Source: Segetibacter sp.
Lineage (GTDB): Bacteria; Bacteroidota; Bacteroidia; Chitinophagales; Chitinophagaceae
Assembly (NCBI GenBank): GCA_028288485.1
Contig: JAQBNO010000163.1
Span: forward strand, 1-64,000
Direction of reading: 5' to 3'
DNA: 64,000 bases
Shown: positions 7,821 to 19,745 of the stretch, piece after piece
Numbering within the stretch: the stretch's first letter is position 1
Layout: each line of letters begins with the position of its first letter
Translations under genes and position numbers: made by a program
Notes under the pieces: model-generated
What the model saw: the letters and a program-made list of their open reading frames with translations, nothing else
What the model was told of the DNA's origin: nothing
Databases searched by the model: none

Positions 7821-9029
7821 TCACAAAATATCATTCAGGATCTCATGCCCCATCTTATCGCGCTTTGTCTGCAAATACTTCTCATTATGCGGGTTCGACT
7901 TTACTTCTATCGGAATAATGTCAACAATTTCAAGACCGTAACCTTTTAATCCTGCTCTTTTTTTCGGATTGTTACTCATTAACCTCATCCGGGTAACATC
8001 AAGATGTCGTAAAATTTGTGCACCTATGCCGTAGTCTCTTTCGTCGGTTCCAAAACCCAGGTGAATATTTGCCTGAACGGTGTCCATTCCTTCTTCCTGC
8101 AGTTTATATGCCTTCAGTTTATTTACGAGGCCAATTCCACGTCCTTCCTGGTTCATATACAAGATCACCCCCCTGCCCTCATCTTCTACCATCTTCATAG
8201 CTTTATGCAGTTGCTCGCCGCAATCGCAGCGAAGACTTCCCAAAATATCGCCGGTAAAACAACTACTATGAACCCGGGTAAGTATTGCATCTCCTTTTTG
8301 CCAATCTCCTTTAATTAATGCAAGGTGTTCCCTTTGTGTAGTTTTTTCTTTAAACGCCACCAGTTTAAAAGTCCCATATTTTGTCGGCATTTCAACCCTT
8401 ACAATTTCCTCGATCAACGAATCTTTTTTGAGCCGATACTCTATCAGGTCTTTAATCGAAACAACTTTTAGATTAAACTTTTTCGCAATTTCCTCTAATT
8501 GCGGCAGTCGCGCCATTGTACCATCTTCATTCATTATTTCTACCAAAACCCCTGCAGGCTCAAACCCTGCCAAACGTGCAAGATCAATAGCAGCTTCAGT
8601 ATGACCGGTCCTTCTTAATACCCCACCTTTTTTAGCTCTTAACGGGAAAATATGCCCCGGTCTTCCAAGGTCTTTAGGTTTGGTCTGCGGGTCAACCAAA
8701 GCCTGTATTGTTTTTGCCCTGTCGTGGGTAGAAATGCCCGTAGTGCATCCATGACCCAGCAGGTCGACCGAAACGGTAAAAGGAGTTTCATGGAGAGAAG
8801 TATTACTATTGACCATGAGTTCAAGTCCAAGTTCATCGCACCTGTCTTCAATAAGAGGTACGCAAATTAGTCCCCTTCCCTCCCTGCTCATAAAATTAAT
8901 AACTTCAGGAGTAACCATTTTAGCTGCTATAATAAAGTCTCCTTCATTCTCTCTATCCTCGTCATCCACCACAATTACCATTTTACCCTGGCGGATGTCT
9001 TCAATTGCACTATCAATAGAATCTAACAT
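7821..9029 (-). CDS. ribBA: Bifunctional DHBP synthase / GTP cyclohydrolase II
   Basis: This cytosolic enzyme supplies both precursors of riboflavin: 3,4-dihydroxy-2-butanone 4-phosphate from ribulose 5-phosphate, and the pyrimidine from GTP. The N-terminal RibB domain (about 1-200) carries [22 protein letters not shown] and [13 protein letters not shown]. The C-terminal RibA domain (about 205-400) has the zinc-cysteine cluster [18 protein letters not shown] and the motif NQEGRGIGL. The 402-residue length is standard. I chose the ATG at 9029 ([13 protein letters not shown]) because it matches the usual N-terminus; an upstream extension of the frame to 9200 has no family likeness. No FMN riboswitch was recognised upstream. 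The gene is divergent from the TonB receptor. Confidence 0.95.
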
Positions 9030-9055
9030 AAATCGAATTTTAGCAAAATTACGTT

Positions 9056-9084
9056 CAAAGATTTTAAACTTTAAAATATAACAA
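9056..9084 (-). promoter_or_regulatory. Possible Bacteroidetes-type promoter of ribBA
   Basis: On the minus strand a TTG (9082-9084) is followed after 18 bases by AATCTTTG (9056-9063). This is one mismatch from the Bacteroidetes -7 consensus TAnnTTTG, about 27 bases before the ribBA start. Confidence 0.35.
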
Positions 9085-9240
9085 GTTGGGATGAATAAGG
9101 GTTCACTTTTACATGTTTTTGCCTTTTTTAATGCAGCATTCCCCCGTTTGAAACTGCCTAAGCAGTTACAATTTGTTAACATACTGGTGAATGCGTTCAA
9201 CTTTTATTTGTTTTCTTTGCACACGAAAAATTACTTTTTT

Positions 9241-12200
9241 ATGCTAATCAGAAGAATTTTACCTATTATCCTGGTAATATTTGCGCCATTATATATGCTT
9301 GCGCAGGTAACTACCAGTAGTATTACAGGAACGGTCAGATCGACAAACGGACCGCTGGCTGGCGCTACCATTACTGCCACCCACACTCCTACCGGAACGG
9401 TTTACCGGACGGTAACCTTAACAAAAGGAGTTTATAACCTGGTTAACTTGCAGCCGGGAGGGCCATATAAAATAGAAGTTTCTTTTGTAGGCTACCAACC
9501 ATTTACGCAAGACAGCGTTTCTTTAGCTCTTGGTGAAAACACAAGATTTGACGCGGATCTTAGCAGCACAAGTAGTACACTCGCTGAAGTTGTTGTAACA
9601 ACAACCGGGTCGGGAGCAAGAAGAAAGACAGGTGCAGCTACCAGCATTAGCCGGGCCCAGATTAATGCACTTCCATCTTTAAACAGAAGTTTACAGGATT
9701 ATACAAGACTAACACCACAAGCTAACGGCAATTCATTTGGCGGCGTTAGTAACAGGTTTAATAATATTACCATTGATGGAGCAGTTAATAACGATGTGTT
9801 TGGTTTGTCGGGTTCTGGTACACCCGGCGGCGGTGCAGGAACTACTCCGATTTCTTTAGACGCTATACAGGAAATACAAGTTGTTCTCGCTCCTTATGAT
9901 ATTACTTACGGCAATTTTACAGGGGGTGGTGTAAATGCAGTTACACGTTCAGGAACCAATAAGTTAGACGGTTCGGTTTATTATTTTCTGAGAAATCAAA
10001 ATACAGTAGGCAAAGACCCTGTTTCAGGAGTAAAAACAACCGATTTTAGCGATAAGCAGTATGGCATACGGTTAGGCGGGCCCATTGTTAAGAATAAACT
10101 ATTCTTTTTTGTAAACGGTGAATTGGCAAGAAGAACAGCACCTACATTATTTAATGCCGGAGAAACAGGAGCTTTAATTACAACTGCAGAAGCACAGGCA
10201 CTTGCGGATACAGTACAGAGAAAATATGGATACAATGTTGGCGGCTATGATGCTTTTAGTGCTGCCACGCAGAGTGATAAATTGTTTGGCAGGTTAGATT
10301 GGAACATCAATGATAAGCACAGGTTAACGCTGCGCCATAATTATATCAAAGCTTTCGACGATAACATTTCCCGTTCGGCTACCTTATTCCGTTATGGTAA
10401 TAACGCTTACCGTTTTAACAATACCCAGAATATAACCGTAGCAGAATTACGAAGCAGGTTTAGCAACAGGCTTTCAAATAATTTAATACTTGGCCTTCAC
10501 AAAATCAGGGATTTCCGTTCAACTTATGGAACCTTATTTCCTTCTGTAGAAATAACGCAGGGTTCGGGCACCATTCAATTTGGGTCCGAAAGAAGTTCAA
10601 CTGCAAACGAACTCGACCAGGACATTTTTGAGGTTACGAATAACCTGAAATATTTTAAAGGAAAACACACTTTTACTGTAGGAACACATAACGAGTTTTT
10701 TAAATTCAGGAACCTTTTCATTAATAACCTCAACGGAAGATGGTCGTTCAATAGTGTTGCAGATTTCTATGCTAACAGGCCCAGACAGGTTCAGGCTACG
10801 TACTCTAATGTTCCTGGTGAAACAAAACCTTCTGCAGCATTTAGCGCTGCTCAACTAGGTTTTTATGCACAGGACGAAATACAGGTTAATTCGAAATTCA
10901 GGGTTACAGCAGGTTTACGTGTAGACGTACCGGTTGTTGGAGACAGGCCTTCTTTTAATAAAATAGTTGACTCAACTTTCAAAAGCCAATATTCAACTTC
11001 AAACATTCCTAATAAGCAGTTGTTATGGTCTCCGAGACTTGGATTTAATTATGATGTTACAGGAAACAGAGATCTGATACTTAGAGGAGGCGCGGGCATA
11101 TTTACCGGTCGTGTTCCGTTTGTGTGGATCTCGAACCAATTCTCAAACACCGGCTTGTTACTAAGTACAATAAGCAATACTACTATCCCCGGAGGCTTTC
11201 AACCTGATCCTACAAAACAAGGTACCCTTGGTACTGCAGGAAGAAATTTTGAAGTTAACCTGATTGATAAAGACTTTAAATTGCCGCAAGTTGCCCGTTT
11301 TAATCTTGCTTCAGATATAAAATTACCTGGCGGTATAAATGCAACTCTTGAAGCTATCTACTCTAAAACAATAAATAATGTTTTATATAAAGACATCAAT
11401 CTTGCTCCACCTACTGGAATTGTAGATCAGACGTTTAATAACGGCGCAGATAAGAGAATAGCGTTTTCATCATCTACAAATGCCGGCGGCAGGAGAATAA
11501 ATCCTGATATAACTAATGCTATCCTAATCTCAAATACGAACCAGGGTTATACATATAATCTTACAGCACAGTTAAGTAAAACCTGGAAAAATGTTTTTGC
11601 TTCCGTTGCATACAATTACAACGATGCAAGGGAGGTAAACAGTGGTGCCAGTTCTACTGCGTTATCTAACTGGGAATTTGTGCAGGTAGTTGGTGATCCT
11701 AACAATCCACCTTTGTCGCGTTCAAACTATGCATTACCTCATCGCATTACTGCTGTCTTGTCTACTAACTTAAATTACAGCAAATTCATGAAAACCTCGC
11801 TTTCATTCTTTTATGTAGGCAACTCAGGTACAAGACTTACCTACTTGGTGAATGGTGATTTAAACAGCGATGGCCGCTTTGGTAACGACCTGTTATATGT
11901 TCCAAAAAACACCAGCGAGATCACTTTTGCTGATTTCCTGAACGCAAACGGAACAGTGCGATATACTGCTGCTGTACAGGCTGCTGCTTTTGAAAAATAC
12001 ATCAGCAGTAACAAATATCTTAACAGCAGGAGAGGTACATATACCGAAAGAAATGGAAGCAGCACGCCCTGGGAGCATGTGATAGATATGAGGATCGCTC
12101 ATGATTTCTTTATTACCCGCGGTGAAAACAAACACGCCCTTCAAATAACCTTCGACGTATTTAACTTCACAAACCTGATAAATCAAGACTGGGGCAGACA

Positions 12201-12366
12201 ATATGCTGTTACAAACCAGGCCTACAATATTCTAAGCGTAGTAAACAGAACAAGTGGTGCTAATATCGGGAAAGGATATAATTTCAGTATAGGACAAGAG
12301 CCATGGAATACAACCTTTGGTTCAAGGTTCCAGGGACAATTGGGTTTGAGGTATTCTTTCAATTAA
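9241..12366 (+). CDS. Oar-type TonB-dependent outer-membrane receptor
   Basis: The 1041-residue product is a TonB-dependent outer-membrane transporter of the Oar/carboxypeptidase-regulatory type. It begins with a signal peptide ending near LYMLAQ. A CarboxypepD-regulatory-like beta domain follows (SITGTVRSTNGPLAGATITA, about 24-110). The plug domain includes ITIDGAVNNDVFGL and the segment QEIQVVLAPYDITYGNFTGG. The beta barrel runs to a C-terminal aromatic residue (LGLRYSFN). I placed the start at ATG 9241, where the signal peptide begins; the open frame reaches back to 9091 without one. It is not a SusC, since no SusD gene follows. The substrate cannot be told from sequence; Oar proteins elsewhere act in adhesion, protein secretion or peptide uptake. 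Confidence 0.88.
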   Translation: MLIRRILPIILVIFAPLYMLAQVTTSSITGTVRSTNGPLAGATITATHTPTGTVYRTVTLTKGVYNLVNLQPGGPYKIEVSFVGYQPFTQDSVSLALGENTRFDADLSSTSSTLAEVVVTTTGSGARRKTGAATSISRAQINALPSLNRSLQDYTRLTPQANGNSFGGVSNRFNNITIDGAVNNDVFGLSGSGTPGGGAGTTPISLDAIQEIQVVLAPYDITYGNFTGGGVNAVTRSGTNKLDGSVYYFLRNQNTVGKDPVSGVKTTDFSDKQYGIRLGGPIVKNKLFFFVNGELARRTAPTLFNAGETGALITTAEAQALADTVQRKYGYNVGGYDAFSAATQSDKLFGRLDWNINDKHRLTLRHNYIKAFDDNISRSATLFRYGNNAYRFNNTQNITVAELRSRFSNRLSNNLILGLHKIRDFRSTYGTLFPSVEITQGSGTIQFGSERSSTANELDQDIFEVTNNLKYFKGKHTFTVGTHNEFFKFRNLFINNLNGRWSFNSVADFYANRPRQVQATYSNVPGETKPSAAFSAAQLGFYAQDEIQVNSKFRVTAGLRVDVPVVGDRPSFNKIVDSTFKSQYSTSNIPNKQLLWSPRLGFNYDVTGNRDLILRGGAGIFTGRVPFVWISNQFSNTGLLLSTISNTTIPGGFQPDPTKQGTLGTAGRNFEVNLIDKDFKLPQVARFNLASDIKLPGGINATLEAIYSKTINNVLYKDINLAPPTGIVDQTFNNGADKRIAFSSSTNAGGRRINPDITNAILISNTNQGYTYNLTAQLSKTWKNVFASVAYNYNDAREVNSGASSTALSNWEFVQVVGDPNNPPLSRSNYALPHRITAVLSTNLNYSKFMKTSLSFFYVGNSGTRLTYLVNGDLNSDGRFGNDLLYVPKNTSEITFADFLNANGTVRYTAAVQAAAFEKYISSNKYLNSRRGTYTERNGSSTPWEHVIDMRIAHDFFITRGENKHALQITFDVFNFTNLINQDWGRQYAVTNQAYNILSVVNRTSGANIGKGYNFSIGQEPWNTTFGSRFQGQLGLRYSFN

Positions 12367-12390
12367 TATTAAAAGATCAATTCTTTACAT

Positions 12391-12427
12391 AAAAAGAGGC
12401 GGCTTTACAAGGCCGCCTCTTTTATTT
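12391..12427. terminator. Bidirectional intrinsic terminator
   Basis: The perfect 12-bp arms AAAAGAGGCGGC and GCCGCCTCTTTT enclose an 8-base loop and are flanked by T-rich sequence on the plus strand and A-rich on the other. It lies between the TonB receptor and the convergent esterase and can serve both. Confidence 0.9.
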
Positions 12428-12444
12428 TTGTTGAATAGTTGAAG

Positions 12445-13254
12445 TTATTCTCCCCAACCCCATTTTAAAAATGTTGGAAACGCTCTTCCCCAGGTTTCCA
12501 TATCGTGCCTGCCATCTTCTAATTCAAGATACGCTATTTGTTTATCAGTATAACCAATGCCTTTAAGATCTTCTATCAGATCAGTTGTATCTTCAATAGA
12601 GTCAATTATTCCATTATTATTCCTGTCTGCGGTTTCATCTAACCGGCCACATTCAAAGAAAAATTTCAGACCCGGTTTGTAAGAACCCTTCTGTACCTGC
12701 AGATGCATAATGCGGTCTTTGTCACCGTCATAACCTTCTTCTTCATATCCACGCCTTCTCCACCACAAAGAGCCGCTGAAAACACCGACTTTTGAAAACT
12801 CATTGGGGTAGTTCCAGGCTAGGTCAATTGCACTTAACCCGCCCAGGGAAAAACCTGCAACAGATTTTTCCTTTATTGACCTAATCCCAAAGGCCAGTTT
12901 CAAAAAAGGCAACAGTTCGTCCAAAATAAATTTACAGTACAAACCGGCCTTTGCTCCCCTACCCTTGTAATCCGGTCTGCAAATGGTTCCATACTCATTC
13001 ATTCTGTCGGCATTGCAATGAATACCAACACAGATTAAAAACTTCGGTGTTTTTGTTCCTAACGCTGAATTCAAAATTTCAGCAAAATTTATCTTTCTTA
13101 AATCCTGGCCGTCGTTGATTAGTAATAGTTCTGCCTCTTCACCAGGGTGAGATTGTTTTGGCAGGTAAACATCAATTATTACTTCCCTCTCAAGAAACTC
13201 AGAATAAATCATCTTCTGTTTTACACCGACAATAGAACTTTCTATACCCGCCAT
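12445..13254 (-). CDS. Esterase-family alpha/beta hydrolase (enterochelin-esterase-like)
   Basis: The product (269 residues from the chosen start) belongs to the putative esterase family of Fes, antigen-85 and S-formylglutathione-hydrolase type enzymes. The nucleophile elbow is GFSLGG near residue 145; downstream acidic and His positions (FECGRLDET near 210, DGRHDMETW near 250) complete a plausible triad. The segment DRNNNGIIDSIEDT resembles a calcium-binding loop. No signal peptide is seen, so it is probably cytosolic. I chose ATG 13254 because AGAGGA precedes it by four bases; 13272 or 13329 are alternatives. It is divergent from the ATP-grasp gene and is the first member of an amidoligase neighbourhood, where such esterases may release or trim the ligated product (inference). 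Confidence 0.75.
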   Translation of the reverse strand: MAGIESSIVGVKQKMIYSEFLEREVIIDVYLPKQSHPGEEAELLLINDGQDLRKINFAEILNSALGTKTPKFLICVGIHCNADRMNEYGTICRPDYKGRGAKAGLYCKFILDELLPFLKLAFGIRSIKEKSVAGFSLGGLSAIDLAWNYPNEFSKVGVFSGSLWWRRRGYEEEGYDGDKDRIMHLQVQKGSYKPGLKFFFECGRLDETADRNNNGIIDSIEDTTDLIEDLKGIGYTDKQIAYLELEDGRHDMETWGRAFPTFLKWGWGE

Positions 13255-13674
13255 TACATCCTCTTCGTTCATAAATTTTAAAATATTTTCTGCCAGTACT
13301 GCTTTTTGTTTATACAAAAGATGACACATGAAACCTGTTAAAACTTTCGCTCTCCCGTCCCTCTGTAGCCTGGATCTCCCTTTTTAAAAAAGAAGGATTA
13401 TTTATAATAATAAAAGGAAGGTCAGCTTCAGTTTGCGAATTGCATTTTGCAATAAACGGACCGCAAGGAAAAGAAATTGTTTAACTTTATTTGGACCGGT
13501 AAAATTGAGGAATGATATTTTTACCAAACGTAGTAGTTTGATTAAAAATTTGTAGGATTAAACCTACATTGATGACCATTGCAGCAGTTTTGTGTTTTTC
13601 ATCTCCATTTTATGGTAGAGCGAAGGAAAAATTAGATCGTGCTGTAAATTTCCTCACATTAAACAATTTCGCTT
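13255..13674. promoter_or_regulatory. Divergent control region of the amidoligase cluster
   Basis: These 420 bases separate the esterase from the first ATP-grasp gene. They contain a small palindrome, TGTAGG-ATTAAA-CCTACA (13551-13568), which could be an operator. A weak TTTG (13490-13493) with a TATTTTT 21 bases on may be a promoter. No coding sequence is seen. Confidence 0.35.
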
Positions 13675-14631
13675 ATGAACAAAATTGGAATTCTTTTTGG
13701 AAAAGAACGAAGTTTCCCCCACGCATTAATTGAAAGGATTAACAGCAAAGGAATCGATGGCATTCTTGCAGAACCTGTTCATATAAATAAAGTGATGCAG
13801 GGTGAAACTACTGATTATGCCGTTATACTCGACCGCATCAGCCAGGATGTTCCGTTTTACCGCGCTTATCTTAAAAATGCAGCCCTTTGTGGTACGGCAG
13901 TAATTAATAATCCTTTTTGGTGGAGTGCTGATGAAAAGTTTTTCAACAATTGCCTTGCAACTAAAATAGGCGTTCCTGTTCCAAAAACAGTCATTCTACC
14001 TTCTTACCAGTTGCCGGCTGATACTTCAAATGAATCTTTCAGTAACCTTGATTACCCTTTAGATTGGGAAGCCATCTTTAATTACATCGGTTTCCCGGCT
14101 TATATGAAGCCTTTTGCCGGCGGCGGTTGGAAGAGTGTTTACAGGCTGGACGACATGCAAAAATTTTCCGAAACTCATCCCGAAACAGGTGAATTAGTGA
14201 TGATGCTACAGGAAGAAATTATCTTCGAAGAATATTACCGCTGCTATTGCATCGGGGGGAAATATGTAAGGATTATGCCTTACGAACCTCGCAACCCTTT
14301 TCACCTTCGGTATGTCGCCGATTTTTCTCCTTCCGAAGAAAAGCTGAAGGAAATGGAGAGTATCGTGCTAAAGATCAATAAATACCTCGGTTATGATTTT
14401 AATACCGTCGAACTGGCTTTAAGGGATGGTGTTCCTTACGCCATCGACTTTTGTAACCCTGCACCAGATGCAGACATCAACAGCGTTGGACAAGAAAACT
14501 TTGACTGGGTTGTTGAAACAGCGGCCAATTTTGCTATTGAAAAAGCACAGTCCAACAAGCCCGGCAAAGACAACCTTACCTGGGGCGAATACGTAAAAAG
14601 AAGCAGTGGCGGTGCTGACTCTTTAATTTAA
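13675..14631 (+). CDS. ATP-grasp domain amide ligase
   Basis: The 318-residue cytosolic protein shows an ATP-grasp fold of the kind that joins a carboxylate to an amine through an acyl phosphate. The N-terminal pre-ATP-grasp region runs to about residue 100. The nucleotide-binding strands are GFPAYMKPFAGGGWKSVY (near 140-157, with lysine and a glycine loop) and MMLQEEIIFEEYYRCY (near 182-197). The metal-binding end is YAIDFCNPAPDADINS near 260-275, where D and N stand in the usual E-x-N positions. The start MNKIGILFGKE matches a family beginning. The gene is followed after 54 bases by the YbdK-type ligase. The amine and acid substrates are unknown. It resembles RimK-like and glutathione-synthetase-like ligases only at fold level. 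Confidence 0.8.
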   Translation: MNKIGILFGKERSFPHALIERINSKGIDGILAEPVHINKVMQGETTDYAVILDRISQDVPFYRAYLKNAALCGTAVINNPFWWSADEKFFNNCLATKIGVPVPKTVILPSYQLPADTSNESFSNLDYPLDWEAIFNYIGFPAYMKPFAGGGWKSVYRLDDMQKFSETHPETGELVMMLQEEIIFEEYYRCYCIGGKYVRIMPYEPRNPFHLRYVADFSPSEEKLKEMESIVLKINKYLGYDFNTVELALRDGVPYAIDFCNPAPDADINSVGQENFDWVVETAANFAIEKAQSNKPGKDNLTWGEYVKRSSGGADSLI

Positions 14632-14685
14632 TTATACTACTAAGAACTGTTGCCTGCCTTTATACTTTAATCTTAATAACCATAC

Positions 14686-15795
14686 ATGGCACCCTTTAAC
14701 TACAAACATTTCACGCTCGGTATTGAAGAAGAATATATGGTAATTGACCCGAAAACGCGGGAATTAAAAAGCCACGAGCAAAAAATCGTCACTGAAGGTC
14801 AAAAGGTAATCAGGGATAAGGTTAAAGCAGAAATGCACCAGGCAGTTGTAGAAGTAGGAACCGACATCTGTGAAAATATTGAAGTAGCATACCGCGATGT
14901 ATCAACGCTGAGAACTACAATTTCGCAAATAGCCGGAGACCTCGGCCTTTGGGTAGGAGCCTCAGGTACACACCCTTTCAGCCATTGGGAACGACAGTTG
15001 ATAACCGACCATGCACGTTATAATGACATTGTAAACGAGTTACAGGAAGCAGCAAGAAGTAACCTTATTTTCGGTCTTCACGTTCACGTTGGTATGGAAA
15101 GCCGCGAAATGGCCATTCATATTGCTAATTCTGCCCGGTATTTTTTACCCCATGTGTACGCACTTAGTACCAACTCCCCTTTCTGGGAAGGCAGAACGAC
15201 AGGCTACAAATCATTCCGGACCAAAGTTTTCGATAAGTTTCCGCGAACAGGTATCCCTGATTTTTTCGAAAGCATCGAGGCTTATGATAATTACATAAAA
15301 CTGCTGGTAAAAACGAATTGTATTGATAATGCCAAAAAAATATGGTGGGATCTGCGGGTTCACCCTTTTTTCAATACAGTAGAATTCAGGATCTGCGACG
15401 TGCCAATGAATATTGATGAAACCATTGCTATTGCCGCCCTTTTCCAGGCAATTTGCGCCAAACTGTACCTGCTTCGAAGCAAAAACCTCAATTTCATGAT
15501 GTATTCGCGGCTGTTGATCAACGAAAATAAATGGCGCGCCGGCCGTTACGGAATAGACGGAACGATGATAGACTTTGGCAAAGAATCGGAAGTAAATACC
15601 CGTGTACTAATTTATGAACTTCTCGATTTTGTAGATGACGTAGTGGACCATCTCGGGAGCAGGCCCGCCATTTCTTATGTTCATAAAATTCTTGAAAGAG
15701 GCACCGGTGCCGACCGGCAACTGGCGGTATTTAAAGAAACAAATGACCTGGTAGCCGTAGCAGATTACATTCATGATCAGTTCCTCGTGAAATAA
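14686..15795 (+). CDS. Carboxylate-amine ligase, YbdK/GCS2 family
   Basis: This is a glutamate-cysteine-ligase-type 2 fold enzyme of the YbdK group, which forms amide or gamma-glutamyl bonds with ATP. The 369 residues match the family length. Typical motifs are LGIEEEYMVID (9-19), GLHVHVGM (about 129), NSPFWEGRTTGYKSFR (about 161), WWDLRVHPFFNTVEFRICDVP-like sequence (about 224, divided here as WWDLRVHP and TVEFRICD) and NKWRAGRYGIDG (about 284). The catalytic acidic and histidine residues appear intact. It lies 54 bases after the ATP-grasp gene, probably in one transcript. YbdK itself has weak glutamate-cysteine ligase activity in E. coli; the true substrate here is unknown. Confidence 0.9.
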   Translation: MAPFNYKHFTLGIEEEYMVIDPKTRELKSHEQKIVTEGQKVIRDKVKAEMHQAVVEVGTDICENIEVAYRDVSTLRTTISQIAGDLGLWVGASGTHPFSHWERQLITDHARYNDIVNELQEAARSNLIFGLHVHVGMESREMAIHIANSARYFLPHVYALSTNSPFWEGRTTGYKSFRTKVFDKFPRTGIPDFFESIEAYDNYIKLLVKTNCIDNAKKIWWDLRVHPFFNTVEFRICDVPMNIDETIAIAALFQAICAKLYLLRSKNLNFMMYSRLLINENKWRAGRYGIDGTMIDFGKESEVNTRVLIYELLDFVDDVVDHLGSRPAISYVHKILERGTGADRQLAVFKETNDLVAVADYIHDQFLVK

Positions 15796-16230
15796 TTTCC
15801 GGGAAAAAGAATAGTCGTTTCGAAGGCAAAAAATTGACTAGCCGCTACGATGGAAGATCAACATAGAACAAAAAGACAAAACGGAGCGTCGCAACAATGC
15901 GTCATTACACTTAGATAGTTCGTTCAATAAATGTATTTAAATATTAATTCACGGCTATAGATGTAATAGTTGTTTTTGTTCTAAGCTTAAGTTATACCAT
16001 TAAACATTGTTGTGTCACTCACTTGTACCGCTATTACTTCCTTGAGCCAGGAAGAAGTGGAGCTGTATTTATTTTAAAGAACCAAAGAACAGGAACAAAG
16101 TTTTACGACGAAAAACTTGTTAAAGCTATTCCTAAATTTATTTCATTTAATAGCCATTAATGATGGCACAACATCGTTTTAACCTGCCTAAAACACCCTA
16201 TACCGGCAAAAGCAGCTAAATTTGCAAGCT
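15796..16230. other. Gap with inverted repeat copies and a coding remnant
   Basis: The gap holds a weak plus copy (15879-15901) and a good minus copy (16003-16028) of the dispersed repeat. Directly after the second copy an open frame of 43 codons (16029-16160) reads as protein-like sequence (YYFLEPGRSGAVFILKNQ...) to a stop without any start. It could be the tail of a lost gene. Confidence 0.45.
16003..16028 (-). repeat. Dispersed intergenic repeat, copy 3
   Basis: On the minus strand it begins GTACAAGTGAGTGACACAAC and continues AATGTT. It is identical over 20 bases to copies at 7668, 32775 and 53632. Confidence 0.75.
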
Positions 16231-17067
16231 ATGAATTGGAATGAGGATCATAAAATAAGCATTGCCCTTCTCGATTTGAATGAAGGACGCGAGAACCAGG
16301 GAATGCGGTGCTTGCGGGAAATTGTGAAGCAGTGGGCCGAAATCAACAACTATAATGTGGATGTAAAAGAGTTTGATGTTCGGGTAAAAAATGAGGTTCC
16401 GGGTACTGGTTTCGACATATATATTTCTTCTGGAGGACCGGGTTCTCCTTTAGAAAGCATAGGAAGTGAATGGGAAGCCCGTTATTTTAACTGGCTTACT
16501 GAGATAGAAAACTGGAACAAGAGCGATAATTTTCCTAAAAAGCATGTTTTCTTTATTTGCCATAGTTTTCAGTTAGTGTGTCGTCATTATAATATTGGCG
16601 AGGTAGGTAAAAGAAAATCAACTTCTTTCGGGGTTTTCCCGATACACCTGATGCACGATGGAAGCGAAGAAGTGGTCTTTGAAGGATTGCATAATCCTTT
16701 TTACGCTGTTGACAGCCGCGACTTCCAGGTGATTGCGCCTAAGCATTCGAGGATTACTGAGATGGGTGGCAGAATATTAGCGCTGGAAAAAGAAAGGCCG
16801 CATGTTCCTTTTGAAAGAGCGATAATGGCGGTACGTTTCAACGATTATTTTATCGGTACCCAATTTCACCCTGAAGCAGACGCAAGAGGAATGAGCATGT
16901 TGTTGCAAAGAGAAGACAGGAAGAAAACGGTGATTGAAAACTTTGGCCAGGAAAAATGGAAGAGCATGCTCGAACACCTGGAAGATCCCGATAAAATATT
17001 ATATACCTACAGCCATATCTTGCCTAACTTTTTGAATGAAGCGGTGAATGATTTAGTGGAGGCATAA
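16231..17067 (+). CDS. Class I glutamine amidotransferase
   Basis: The 278-residue protein has the triad-type glutamine amidotransferase fold that releases ammonia from glutamine. The nucleophile elbow is FICHSFQLVCRHY near residues 108-120, with the catalytic cysteine in CHS rather than the usual GxCxGxQ, and the His-Glu pair is in GTQFHPEAD near 210. SSGGPGSP near residue 67 forms the oxyanion region. No synthase domain is attached, so it must donate ammonia to a partner or act as a gamma-glutamyl hydrolase like PuuD. The ATG at 16231 is preferred to a TTG nine bases upstream. The gene is in the same direction as the two ligases upstream, 435 bases after them. Confidence 0.82.
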   Translation: MNWNEDHKISIALLDLNEGRENQGMRCLREIVKQWAEINNYNVDVKEFDVRVKNEVPGTGFDIYISSGGPGSPLESIGSEWEARYFNWLTEIENWNKSDNFPKKHVFFICHSFQLVCRHYNIGEVGKRKSTSFGVFPIHLMHDGSEEVVFEGLHNPFYAVDSRDFQVIAPKHSRITEMGGRILALEKERPHVPFERAIMAVRFNDYFIGTQFHPEADARGMSMLLQREDRKKTVIENFGQEKWKSMLEHLEDPDKILYTYSHILPNFLNEAVNDLVEA

Positions 17068-17172
17068 AAACCAGTAATCCTGTTCTTCGGTCATAAGCCC
17101 TGCAACGGCTAACGCTGCATATTCAGCAGGGGTAAAAAAAGCTATCGCATCTTTTAACAAACCAGACTTCAT
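17053..17172 (-). CDS. Candidate 39-residue peptide gene antisense to the cluster
   Basis: A minus-strand frame begins with ATG at 17172 and ends inside the 3' end of the amidotransferase gene. The peptide starts MKSGLLKDAIAFFTPAEY, is rich in hydrophobic and acidic residues, and ends WFLCLH with one cysteine. An A/T-rich leader (AAACTAAAATATA) precedes the ATG, as before many Bacteroidota genes. I do not recognise it. It could be a small peptide of the amidoligase cluster, the start of a decayed gene, or chance. Confidence 0.25.
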   Translation of the reverse strand: MKSGLLKDAIAFFTPAEYAALAVAGLMTEEQDYWFLCLH

Positions 17173-18053
17173 TATATTTTAGTTTCTCACCATCGTTGCA
17201 TCGTAGGTAATAACACCTGCGACGGCGTAAAGAAACAAACAAGCCACCGGCTCTTTACAGCCAATGGCTTCTTTAATCTTATCTTCTTGCTCACGCTACA
17301 GTTGTTGATCATAACACGCGACAACGGCGAAGCGGCGTACACCAACACGGGAACAGACACTGCAACGCCTGACTCTGCAACACCAACACAGGGGTACATT
17401 GCGATGGCCGACTCTGCAACATCAAACCCGGCAAAAAGGGCTTACGCCGCAACACCAACACGGGCAAAACACTGGCACAATACATCCCATTATTAACCTT
17501 TCCTATATTAGTTAATAAAGCAAGTCGAATTACAATTTTTTCTATTTTTTATTTTTCAAATTGCAGCTATCTACATACATATAGAAGGTCTGCTATATGT
17601 ACCGACAATCAAAAGTTTGCTGTTTTACCAGGTGCTACATTAACTAACGGCAGGTCAATTTTTGGAACGCGAAGACCTGTTTTACAGTTCATCTGCCTTG
17701 AGAACGAAGCAAAGTCGTGCAACGGTGTTGGAGAAAAGTTTTAACTTACGATAGGTTTATACTGCAATAAAAACTAAGCCGACCAATGATCTTACAGTCA
17801 AAACGGAGCGTCGCAATCCCTGCCTCGGTAAGATGAAAGGCTGGCAACTAAAAATCCATCGCATAGTACGGGCAATTTCTTCTACCACTTATCCAGCCAT
17901 TCTCTTTCCAACTTAATCCCGCTGCATGATTCGTGTACTCATAAGCAGGTTATATAAATTTTTAGAATCATAGCTTAAGTAAACGAGTTAAATATCCGAT
18001 CCCTGTATGTTGGCAGGGATTTTTTGTTTTACATCATTATCAAAACAACTTGC
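17173..18053. other. Repeat-rich non-coding stretch in the amidoligase cluster
   Basis: The first part carries a degenerate repeat copy (17187-17207, minus) and four degenerate ~22-base units (17332-17463) with the core CAACACCAACACGGG. A frame around 17590-17745 reads ICTDNQKFAVLPGATLTNG... to a stop and could be a coding remnant. Weak plus copies of the dispersed repeat lie at 17703-17730 and 17793-17817. The stretch ends in a terminator-like hairpin. No intact gene is supported. Confidence 0.45.
17999..18027 (+). terminator. Terminator-like hairpin before second ATP-grasp gene
   Basis: The arms ATCCCTG (17999-18005) and CAGGGAT (18014-18020) with an 8-base loop are followed by TTTTTTG. 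It sits only 27 bases before the start codon at 18054, so it may stop upstream transcription or act as an attenuator of that gene. Confidence 0.6.
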
Positions 18054-19250
18054 ATGGTTCCGTCAATAAGAAACCGGTTTAATGCTTCTTTTACCGAAAA
18101 AAAATACCAGGAATATCTACGGGAATTAAATGCTCCCCACGCTGGGCAGCTCGATTTCCGCGTTGCTGAAACTCCTGTATTTTGTGATAGGGCTTTTACG
18201 GCTAAGATGCTTTCGGCGTGTGAAAGTATTGTTGATGTAATTGTAAGTCAAGGCTTCAAGCAGGAGTCCGAAAAAGCTATTCCGCCCACTGTAAATGTTC
18301 GCGGTGAAAACGCTGTCAGCCATTTTATAGCATTCGACTTTGGCATTTGCGAAAATGAAAAGGGTGAGTTGGAGCCGCAACTAATAGAAATGCAGGGTTT
18401 CCCTACCCTGTTTGCTTTCCAGGTTTGGCAGGAGGAAGTAGCCCGTACAATTTTCTCAATTCCCGCTAATTATGACAGCTATTTAAACGGTTTTAATAAA
18501 GAAAGTTATAAGCAATTGTTGAAGGACATTATACTTAATGGACATGAGCCGGAAAATGTAATCTTGTTAGAGATTTTTCCCGAAAAGCAGAAAACCAGGA
18601 TCGACTTTTTCTTTACAGAAGATTATACCGGTATTAAACAGGTTTGCATAACTGCTTTAATAAAAAAAGGCAAGAAGCTATATTATTCGAATAACGGGGT
18701 GGAAACAGAAATTAAGCGAATTTATAACCGGGTAATTTTCGATGACCTGCAACAACAAACCCCCGAGGTACAGGAGAAAGGTAAAGTTTTATTGGAAGAG
18801 CTCGAAGTGGAATGGGTTCCGCATCCCAACTGGTTTTTCCGTATTAGCAAATACACATTGCCCTTTATTAATCATCCTTACGTTCCGCAAACAAGGTTTT
18901 TAAGTGACCTGAAAGAAATTCCTGCAGATTTGGAAAATTACGTACTAAAGCCATTATTTTCTTTTGCCGGGCAGGGAGTTGTGATTGATGTAACCATGGA
19001 AGATATCGAAAACGTACAGGAACCGAAAAACTGGATCTTACAACGTAAGGTAAAATACGCAGATATTATTGAAACACCAGATGGGCCTGCAAAAGCAGAG
19101 ATCCGTATTTTTTATTTTTGGAAAGACGGAGAGCCCAGACCCGTTGCTACTAACAACCTGGCAAGAATAAGTAAGGGAAAGATGATTGGTGTTCGATATA
19201 ATAAAGATAAAAGCTGGGTTGGCGGTACATTAGCTTTTTTTGAGAAATAG
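18054..19250 (+). CDS. Second ATP-grasp family protein of the amidoligase cluster
   Basis: The 398-residue protein looks like a glutathionylspermidine-synthetase-like or RimK-like ATP-grasp enzyme. The nucleotide-binding parts are NYVLKPLFSFAGQGVVIDV near residues 285-303 (lysine plus glycine-rich loop) and NWILQRKVKYADIIETPDG near 321. The acidic metal-binding part is AEIRIFYFWKDGEP, and the C-terminus is RISKGKMIGVRYNKDKSWVGG. The N-terminal half contains LEPQLIEMQGFPTLFAFQ near residue 110. The start is ATG 18054 (MVPSIRNRF); a frame extension to 18024 runs through the hairpin and is unlikely. It lies in the same orientation as the other cluster genes and converges on a TlpA gene 15 bases away. 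Substrates are unknown. Confidence 0.7.
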   Translation: MVPSIRNRFNASFTEKKYQEYLRELNAPHAGQLDFRVAETPVFCDRAFTAKMLSACESIVDVIVSQGFKQESEKAIPPTVNVRGENAVSHFIAFDFGICENEKGELEPQLIEMQGFPTLFAFQVWQEEVARTIFSIPANYDSYLNGFNKESYKQLLKDIILNGHEPENVILLEIFPEKQKTRIDFFFTEDYTGIKQVCITALIKKGKKLYYSNNGVETEIKRIYNRVIFDDLQQQTPEVQEKGKVLLEELEVEWVPHPNWFFRISKYTLPFINHPYVPQTRFLSDLKEIPADLENYVLKPLFSFAGQGVVIDVTMEDIENVQEPKNWILQRKVKYADIIETPDGPAKAEIRIFYFWKDGEPRPVATNNLARISKGKMIGVRYNKDKSWVGGTLAFFEK

Positions 19251-19265: not shown

Positions 19266-19745
19266 CTAGAGCATTCGCTTCAGCCATTTTTCCAGTTCGT
19301 CATGCTGCAGTCCACCAGCAACAATTCTTCCTTCCTTATCAATTAAAAATGTGGAAGGAATGTAACGAAGGTTCCAGGTTTGCGTTAATTCATTACCGTT
19401 CGCTGCTTTGGTGTCAATCACCTGCAGCCAAGATATGTTATCTTTCTTTACCGCGTTTGTCCAGGCCTTTTTATTTACGTCTATTGATACGGCATATACT
19501 TCGAGCCCCTTGTCTTTAAACTGTTGATAAACTTTGACCATTTCCCGGTTGCTGATGCGGCAGGGCCCGCACCACGACGCCCAGAAATCTAGAACTACTA
19601 CCTTTCCTTTCAAAGACGAAAGTTGTACAACCTGGCCATTGGCGTTAGGAAGCGAAATATCAGGTGCGAAACTGCCGATGGGTGGTTGAGCATTCACCAC
19701 AGACTGCAGCATTAAAAATCCAAGTATAAAAAAGAGTGTTTTCAT
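19266..19745 (-). CDS. TlpA-family thiol-disulfide oxidoreductase
   Basis: The 159-residue periplasmic thioredoxin-like protein has a signal peptide (MKTLFFILGFLMLQSVVNAQ). An AhpC/TSA-type fold follows, with VVLDFWASWCGPCRISNREM near residues 50-69; WCGPC is the reducing-type motif. The cis-proline loop is YIPSTFLIDKEGRI near 128. Such proteins reduce apocytochrome c or other periplasmic disulfides. It ends 15 bases from the convergent ATP-grasp gene, and the HMA-domain gene lies upstream in the same direction. Confidence 0.9.
   Translation of the reverse strand: MKTLFFILGFLMLQSVVNAQPPIGSFAPDISLPNANGQVVQLSSLKGKVVVLDFWASWCGPCRISNREMVKVYQQFKDKGLEVYAVSIDVNKKAWTNAVKKDNISWLQVIDTKAANGNELTQTWNLRYIPSTFLIDKEGRIVAGGLQHDELEKWLKRML

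Follow-up and report, generated by a model that had tools for sequence, protein, structure and literature searches.

A jointly inherited set of predicted amide-forming ligase genes in Segetibacter and other Bacteroidota

We analyzed a 64,000-nucleotide stretch of Segetibacter sp. DNA (GCA_028288485.1, contig JAQBNO010000163.1, positions 1 to 64,000; hereafter the window), taken from a draft assembly (G000) that totals 6.4 Mb in 220 contigs, for a group of five genes that includes three putative ATP-dependent ligases. All five open reading frames (ORFs) are intact, and both their positions and their arrangement are as the first-pass annotation had given them. Four lie on the + strand: the ATP-grasp ligase A1 (13675..14631), the GCS2-family ligase GC (14686..15795), the amidotransferase-fold protein GA (16231..17067), and a second ATP-grasp ligase, A2 (18054..19250). 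The fifth, the alpha/beta hydrolase ES (12445..13329), is divergent from A1 on the - strand.

A1 has the RimK/LysX fold and scores above no curated family cut-off. It matches no Pfam family, reaches a weak 34.6 bits against TIGR00768 (rimK; cut-off 143.4), stays below the LysX cut-off too, and gives marginal matches to PDB sequences (best E 0.0012). An AlphaFold2 model built from 31 homologues (mean predicted local distance difference test score [pLDDT] 87.9) has RimK and LysX as its nearest folds (Z 19-22, identity 13-18%), with Z 21.9 and a root-mean-square deviation (rmsd) of 2.8 over 263 aligned residues for RimK 7qys. Residues K145, E246, D258, and N261 are invariant in all 31 homologues, K145, D258, and N261 being likely catalytic positions. 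Homologues of A1 at 32-43% identity are accompanied by no partner gene in four out of four loci (L127-L130), and further low-identity homologues without the other genes occur in G023, G425, and G437; these possibly form a paralogous family with a different job.

GC is a YbdK-related ligase that scores far above the thresholds of both PF04107 (GCS2; 200.7 bits, gathering score 21) and NF010039 (carboxylate-amine ligase; 526.3 bits, cut-off 371). Over its sequence it is far nearer to YbdK (E 8e-66) than to plant glutamate-cysteine ligases (E 2e-05). It nevertheless carries the motifs NSPF.EG...G[FY].S.R and RTG..P of the plant enzymes, at which Escherichia coli YbdK differs, and this suggests that GC forms a gamma-glutamyl bond.

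The second ATP-grasp assignment, to A2, is borne out by a structural model with no sequence family behind it. The A2 ORF is open from 18024 (TTG), with its first ATG at 18054. At E ≤0.001 the protein matches no Pfam or NCBIfam family, and at E ≤10 Pfam gives one unrelated weak match and none to glutathionylspermidine synthase, although HMMER filters may lose very weak matches; searched by sequence, the PDB gives nothing significant (best YgiC, E 0.019). The AlphaFold2 model from 44 aligned homologues (mean pLDDT 94.1) places A2, over its whole length, in the permuted ATP-grasp fold of glutathionylspermidine synthetase, YgiC, and the eukaryotic glutathione synthetases. Its best structural matches, all near full length, are YgiC (7uk8; Z 26.1, rmsd 3.3, 340 of 398 residues aligned), YjfC, glutathionylspermidine synthetase, and the eukaryotic glutathione synthetases (Z about 24; human GSS 8fbz, Z 23.9), and the top Foldseek matches include the yeast, human, and plant glutathione synthetases. 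Six residues (E112, Q114, R226, K299, E349, and R351) are invariant in 44 out of 44 homologues; all but R226 are likely catalytic positions.

GA, whose first ATG is at 16231 in an ORF open from 16222 (TTG), is a stand-alone protein. Its score against PF00117 (GATase; 34.9 bits, gathering score 22.8) together with its catalytic triad places it in the class I glutamine amidotransferase fold, the triad (Cys110, His213, and Glu215) being invariant in all 32 homologues. It also carries a GGPGS segment and a Gln at Cys+4, which we take to fit a glutaminase and hydrolases of the same fold alike. GA is the least certain member of the set: It could be an ammonia donor for A2 or a gamma-glutamyl peptidase.

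ES belongs to the Esterase family PF00756 (82.4 bits), and its Ser161 (in GFSLGG) and His275 are invariant in 21 out of 21 aligned homologues. Its true start is probably internal, because the majority of homologues align only from about residue 30. Presumably the invariant positions of A1, GA, A2, and ES serve in binding ATP, magnesium, or substrate, as in their families.

We scored two genome samples: 79 relatives, for all five genes, and 395 genomes of the phylum Bacteroidota, for A1, GC, GA, and A2. A 36% A1 match in G023 was dropped before the relatives were counted, and ES was counted there at an identity of at least about 39%, with the best match per genome only. Nine low-identity A1 matches, one weak GA match, seven GC matches at 46-47%, and 12 at 33-38% were dropped before the 395-genome count. 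Among the relatives, GA and A2 occur in an identical set of 45 genomes and are jointly missing from the other 34, and every occurrence of A1 (43), GC (41), and ES (38) falls within those 45. Each gene pair is associated at P < 1e-12 (Fisher's test, which takes genomes as independent, as related genomes are not).

The phylum sample shows the same pattern on a wider scale. A1 is found in 127 genomes, GC in 110, GA in 86, and A2 in 114. About a quarter of the genomes (105) have A1, GC, and A2 together, 64 with GA and 41 without; GC and A2 are jointly present in 109 and disagree in six. A1 and GA alone occur in 16, other combinations in 11, and none of the four genes in 263. The distribution is patchy even within genera. 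In genus g76 two genomes (G214 and G290) have all four genes and one (G226) has three, A1 not being found, and the listed negatives (G097, G101, G131, G141, G157, and G242) have none; in genus g82 two genomes have all four and one has none. The pattern is therefore not just a marker of a deep clade, although related genomes are not independent of one another. The first-pass annotation had held that the grouping would be accidental if homologues were scattered; in both samples the co-conservation is instead very strong. By co-occurrence A1, GC, and A2 look like the core, and GA and ES like accessory members. Outside the window's family the homologues are 52-72% (A1), 49-76% (GC), 42-57% (GA), and 33-55% (A2) identical to the window proteins.

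The genes are also held together in position, most tightly in two halves. Start-to-start distances are below 2.5 kb for A1 and GC in 37 of the 39 relatives with both, for GA and A2 in 33 of 45, and, among the 38 carriers of ES, for ES and A1 in 32; the A1-GC half and the GA-A2 half are within 12 kb of each other in only 16-18 of the 79. We further read 60 neighborhood loci, picked to span families and in the majority centered on A2 matches. The same-strand order A1-GC-GA-A2 recurs in 22 of them, within 5.5 kb in 18, which come from nine families. Of the 30 loci carrying both GA and A2, 29 have GA ahead of A2 and in the same orientation. Other arrangements are A1-GC-A2 without GA (eight), A1-GA-A2 without GC (two), and A2 alone (15). 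A separate set of 80 named loci was picked by A1 similarity and is mostly Chitinophagaceae, going by title. In it GC is present in all 74 loci having 1.5 kb downstream and ES in 71 of the 72 having 2 kb of sequence upstream; GA and A2 are present in 19 and 17, respectively, of the 56 having 8 kb downstream. The closest A1 matches in a named collection include Segetibacter metagenome-assembled genomes (82-88% identity), and named isolates, Pedobacter cryoconitis and Niastella vici among them, have all five genes in one locus.

Twenty further loci centered on A1 bring the number read to 80, and these 80 together reveal members beyond the original five. The first-pass gene list thus holds in that its five genes are real and falls short in that the cluster is larger elsewhere. 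A second alpha/beta hydrolase (c4) lies directly upstream of A1 in 23 out of 80 loci; it has no clear orthologue in the window's own genome, where the best matches are at 33% (with a stop) and 30%. An M17 aminopeptidase occurs in five of the 80 and a third ATP-grasp protein in seven. An M29-type peptidase, a metallopeptidase-like protein, occupies the position of GA, flanked by GC and A2, in four loci from four families (L101, L104, L110, and L111; Pfam-checked for L104 only). Where A1 and GA occur without A2, the genes for A1, d14, and GA follow one another on a single strand in all six loci read (L121-L126; families f39, f42, f46, f50, f63, and f65). The protein d14, a permuted type-2-like ATP-grasp of about 450 residues with a weak CP_ATPgrasp_2 match, takes the place of GC and A2 there and is not present in the 60 loci read first. 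A1 stands without partners alongside in ten loci that come from the deep families f43, f45, f48, f49, f57, f68, f69, and f75, the exception being L136 (f57), with GC about 3.5 kb off. An amidohydrolase of the PF07969 type directly adjoins A2 in families f45 and f48 (L096, L097, L119, and L100), and in two loci of Chitinophagaceae (L043 and L044) a relative of it separates GC from GA. In L096 (f45) a TPR plus redoxin protein (10622-12511) also adjoins A2.

In the window itself the four + strand genes are spaced unevenly, with 54 bp between A1 and GC, about 430 bp between GC and GA, and about 990 bp between GA and A2. A terminator-like hairpin with a T tract (17998..18021, + strand; a consensus match only, in a region with 13 such sites compared with 7.6 in shuffles) lies directly upstream of A2. 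Because the GC-GA and GA-A2 gaps are wide and the hairpin precedes A2, the four genes are probably not one transcript in this genome, and the layout suggests that A2 is transcribed on its own. The GA-A2 gap (17068-18053) holds no convincing ORF, two terminator-like hairpins, and, when searched for repeats, just short, weak ones; in relatives its length ranges from <100 bp up to complete unlinking. In promoter scans, a Bacteroidota-type pattern gave three matches in the window compared with 5.1 expected and zero in the cluster, a shorter motif of this type was not above chance, and a sigma-70 scan was no better than shuffles.

Taken together, these observations lead us to favor, with moderate confidence, the reading that the genes are the form which a phylum-wide pathway of Bacteroidota takes in Chitinophagaceae, and that this pathway leads to one conserved small peptide-like metabolite. 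The product would be made without ribosomes or nonribosomal peptide synthetases, the ligases joining successive amide bonds on one molecule, because three carboxylate-activating (acyl phosphate) ligase folds are inherited together. The first-pass annotation had proposed an amide- or gamma-glutamyl-linked metabolite; three adjacent ATP-dependent acid-amine ligase folds do suggest an amide or a peptide. The product is probably a gamma-glutamyl peptide or amide.

By this scheme, GC would phosphorylate a glutamate-type carboxylate and couple an amine to it, giving a gamma-glutamyl or similar bond. A1, judged by its RimK/LysX fold, may append another amino acid, and A2, again judged by fold, may close a further amide on the peptide carboxylate, as extension or capping. 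GA would either give ammonia to A2, yielding a terminal amide, or trim the gamma-glutamyl group. ES, and elsewhere the second hydrolase and the M17 and M29 peptidases, may trim, release, or recycle the product. A fixed substrate set is argued for, rather than a diversifying secondary metabolite, because A1 and GC are well conserved outside the family. The joint keeping and loss of the three ligases implies a conserved metabolite for which annotation provides no name, since A1 and A2 fall under every curated family cut-off.

Several observations weigh against a single pathway with one product. Neither fold nor motifs settle the substrates, and the lower conservation of A2 and GA fits variable last steps equally well as one product. 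The core is not always complete, GC being missing in four genomes of family f18 and A1 in two relatives, and GA is absent from the 41 genomes with A1, GC, and A2 mentioned above and present in 16 that lack GC and A2. Of the 36 genomes of the window's family that have both A1 and GA, only 14 keep the two no more than 12 kb apart; in the rest they are farther from each other or on another contig, some of which draft contig ends could account for. To these are added the terminator-like hairpin ahead of A2, the relatedness of the genomes entered in the Fisher's tests, and the window's cluster itself, in which we identified neither a transporter nor a regulator nor a carrier.

The first-pass annotation had GA supply ammonia and ES release or trim the product. 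Neither role is certain; as to GA, 41 of the 105 genomes with the core manage without it and an M29-type peptidase takes its slot in four loci. GA may instead act like plant GGP1, removing a gamma-glutamyl group that GC had added as protection or activation, after A1 and A2 have acted; butirosin is the comparison case for such protection and removal. We give this a substantial chance, if somewhat short of even. That GA stands alone with its Cys-His-Glu intact is consistent with it, as are the GA-less genomes and the M29-type peptidases filling the GC-A2 slot in four families, and passages of PMC5442658 present plant GGP1 as a gamma-glutamyl peptidase. However, 16 of the 395 genomes have GA and A1 while lacking GC and A2, seven of these 16 carrying a GC-like gene (46-47% identity), and GA adjoins either A2 or its replacement d14, as expected of an ammonia donor.

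As to what the conserved metabolite is, we think it unlikely, though worth stating, that the product is a small peptide, so far undescribed, which serves throughout the phylum as a cofactor or solute with an importance like that of glutathione or bacillithiol. If true, its assembly would be the work of three ligases, one plant-GCL-like, one RimK-like, and one glutathione-synthetase-like.

A narrower version, in which the product is a new glutathione-like low-molecular-weight thiol, with GC making gamma-Glu-Cys, A2 adding a third residue and A1 a fourth, appears quite improbable. The plant glutamate-cysteine ligase motifs retained in GC, and missing from E. coli YbdK, agree with it, as do the glutathione synthetases among the Foldseek matches of A2, the ResA/TlpA-like thioredoxin-fold gene beside A2 in the window (19266-19745), and the redoxin-domain protein beside A2 in L096. 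Yet the TlpA-like neighbor recurs in just two out of 56 testable named loci, and the bacillithiol gene product BshC is present in each of the 24 genomes tested, of which 12 carry the cluster and 12 lack it; a thiol buffer is thus already in place, and the thiol reading is weakened. The same count rules out the cluster as a substitute for bacillithiol.

It is likewise rather doubtful that GC and A1 make a short peptide which A2 then couples to a polyamine. The nearest solved folds of A2 (YgiC, YjfC, and GspS) speak for such a conjugate, YgiC and YjfC being described as peptide-spermidine ligases in a passage of PMC12568646 and in the title of its reference 48. The sequence identity of A2 to these folds is 11-15%, however, and passages of PMC12568646 have Cp1B, of the same fold, joining an amino acid instead. 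No polyamine-synthesis gene is present among 17 Pfam-typed neighbor proteins, the majority of neighbors not being annotated.

That A1 instead adds residues to a protein or peptide, in the manner of RimK on ribosomal protein S6, the other proteins editing the tag, we regard as very unlikely. The nearest folds of A1, RimK and LysX, would suit this role, but no ORF family below about 160 residues recurs in at least three of the 60 loci (ORFs <70 residues were not called). Ligases of the GC and GSS types act mostly on small molecules, which also counts against tagging. An accidental grouping of unrelated ligases, to which the wide gaps, the hairpin, and the separated halves in all but 14 of the 36 family genomes might point, is hardly credible, contradicted as it is by the joint presence and absence in both samples and the fixed order in nine families. 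Separately, an anti-phage defense role was rejected, none of the five proteins matching PADLOC at E ≤0.001.

On the ES side, the window continues with an outer-membrane beta-barrel protein gene with a carboxypeptidase-regulatory domain (9091-12366), convergent with ES and separated from it by a terminator-like hairpin of 14 pairs (12392..12423, no strand assigned; a consensus match only), and with RibBA (7821-9200). The barrel gene and RibBA turn up together ahead of ES in many Chitinophagaceae loci. Among 54 testable named loci, 32 carry a counterpart of the barrel gene upstream (at least 35% identity). RibBA recurs about as often (30 of 50 testable named loci at >40% identity), and the barrel gene therefore looks like shared synteny rather than a pathway exporter.

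Conserved neighborhoods in which ATP-grasp and GCS2-type ligases are kept together with hydrolases and peptidases are said to have been described as amidoligase neighborhoods by Iyer and colleagues in 2009, whose collection may include the present set. The cluster has the features of such neighborhoods: at least two amidoligases of different folds, a conserved neighborhood, and hydrolases. We would call this a known kind of system and the present set an uncharacterized and unusually well conserved case. Among the literature matches listed, the titles, abstract beginnings, and some passages contain no functional study of the cluster, and the passages of PMC12568646, PMC5442658, and PMC4431377 do not describe it.

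Each ligase has a better known counterpart from which it differs. A1 shares the fold of RimK and LysX at Z 19-22 but differs in sequence (13-18% identity) and lies under both curated cut-offs. A2 shares its fold with E. coli YgiC and YjfC and with glutathionylspermidine synthetase (Z 24-26 over about 340 residues), from which the low identity, the lack of a Pfam family match, and another gene context set it apart. The permuted ATP-grasp fold is also that of the fungal E-64 ligase Cp1B (9cjn; Z 22.9), which differs in its fungal origin, its pathway, and its sequence (13% identity), and whose product is a pseudodipeptide according to passages of PMC12568646. A further parallel is glutathione synthesis in plants and other eukaryotes, with which GC shares glutamate-cysteine ligase motifs and A2 the glutathione synthetase fold; unlike that pathway, the cluster adds a RimK-fold ligase, GA, and an esterase, and the sequence of GC is nearer to YbdK.

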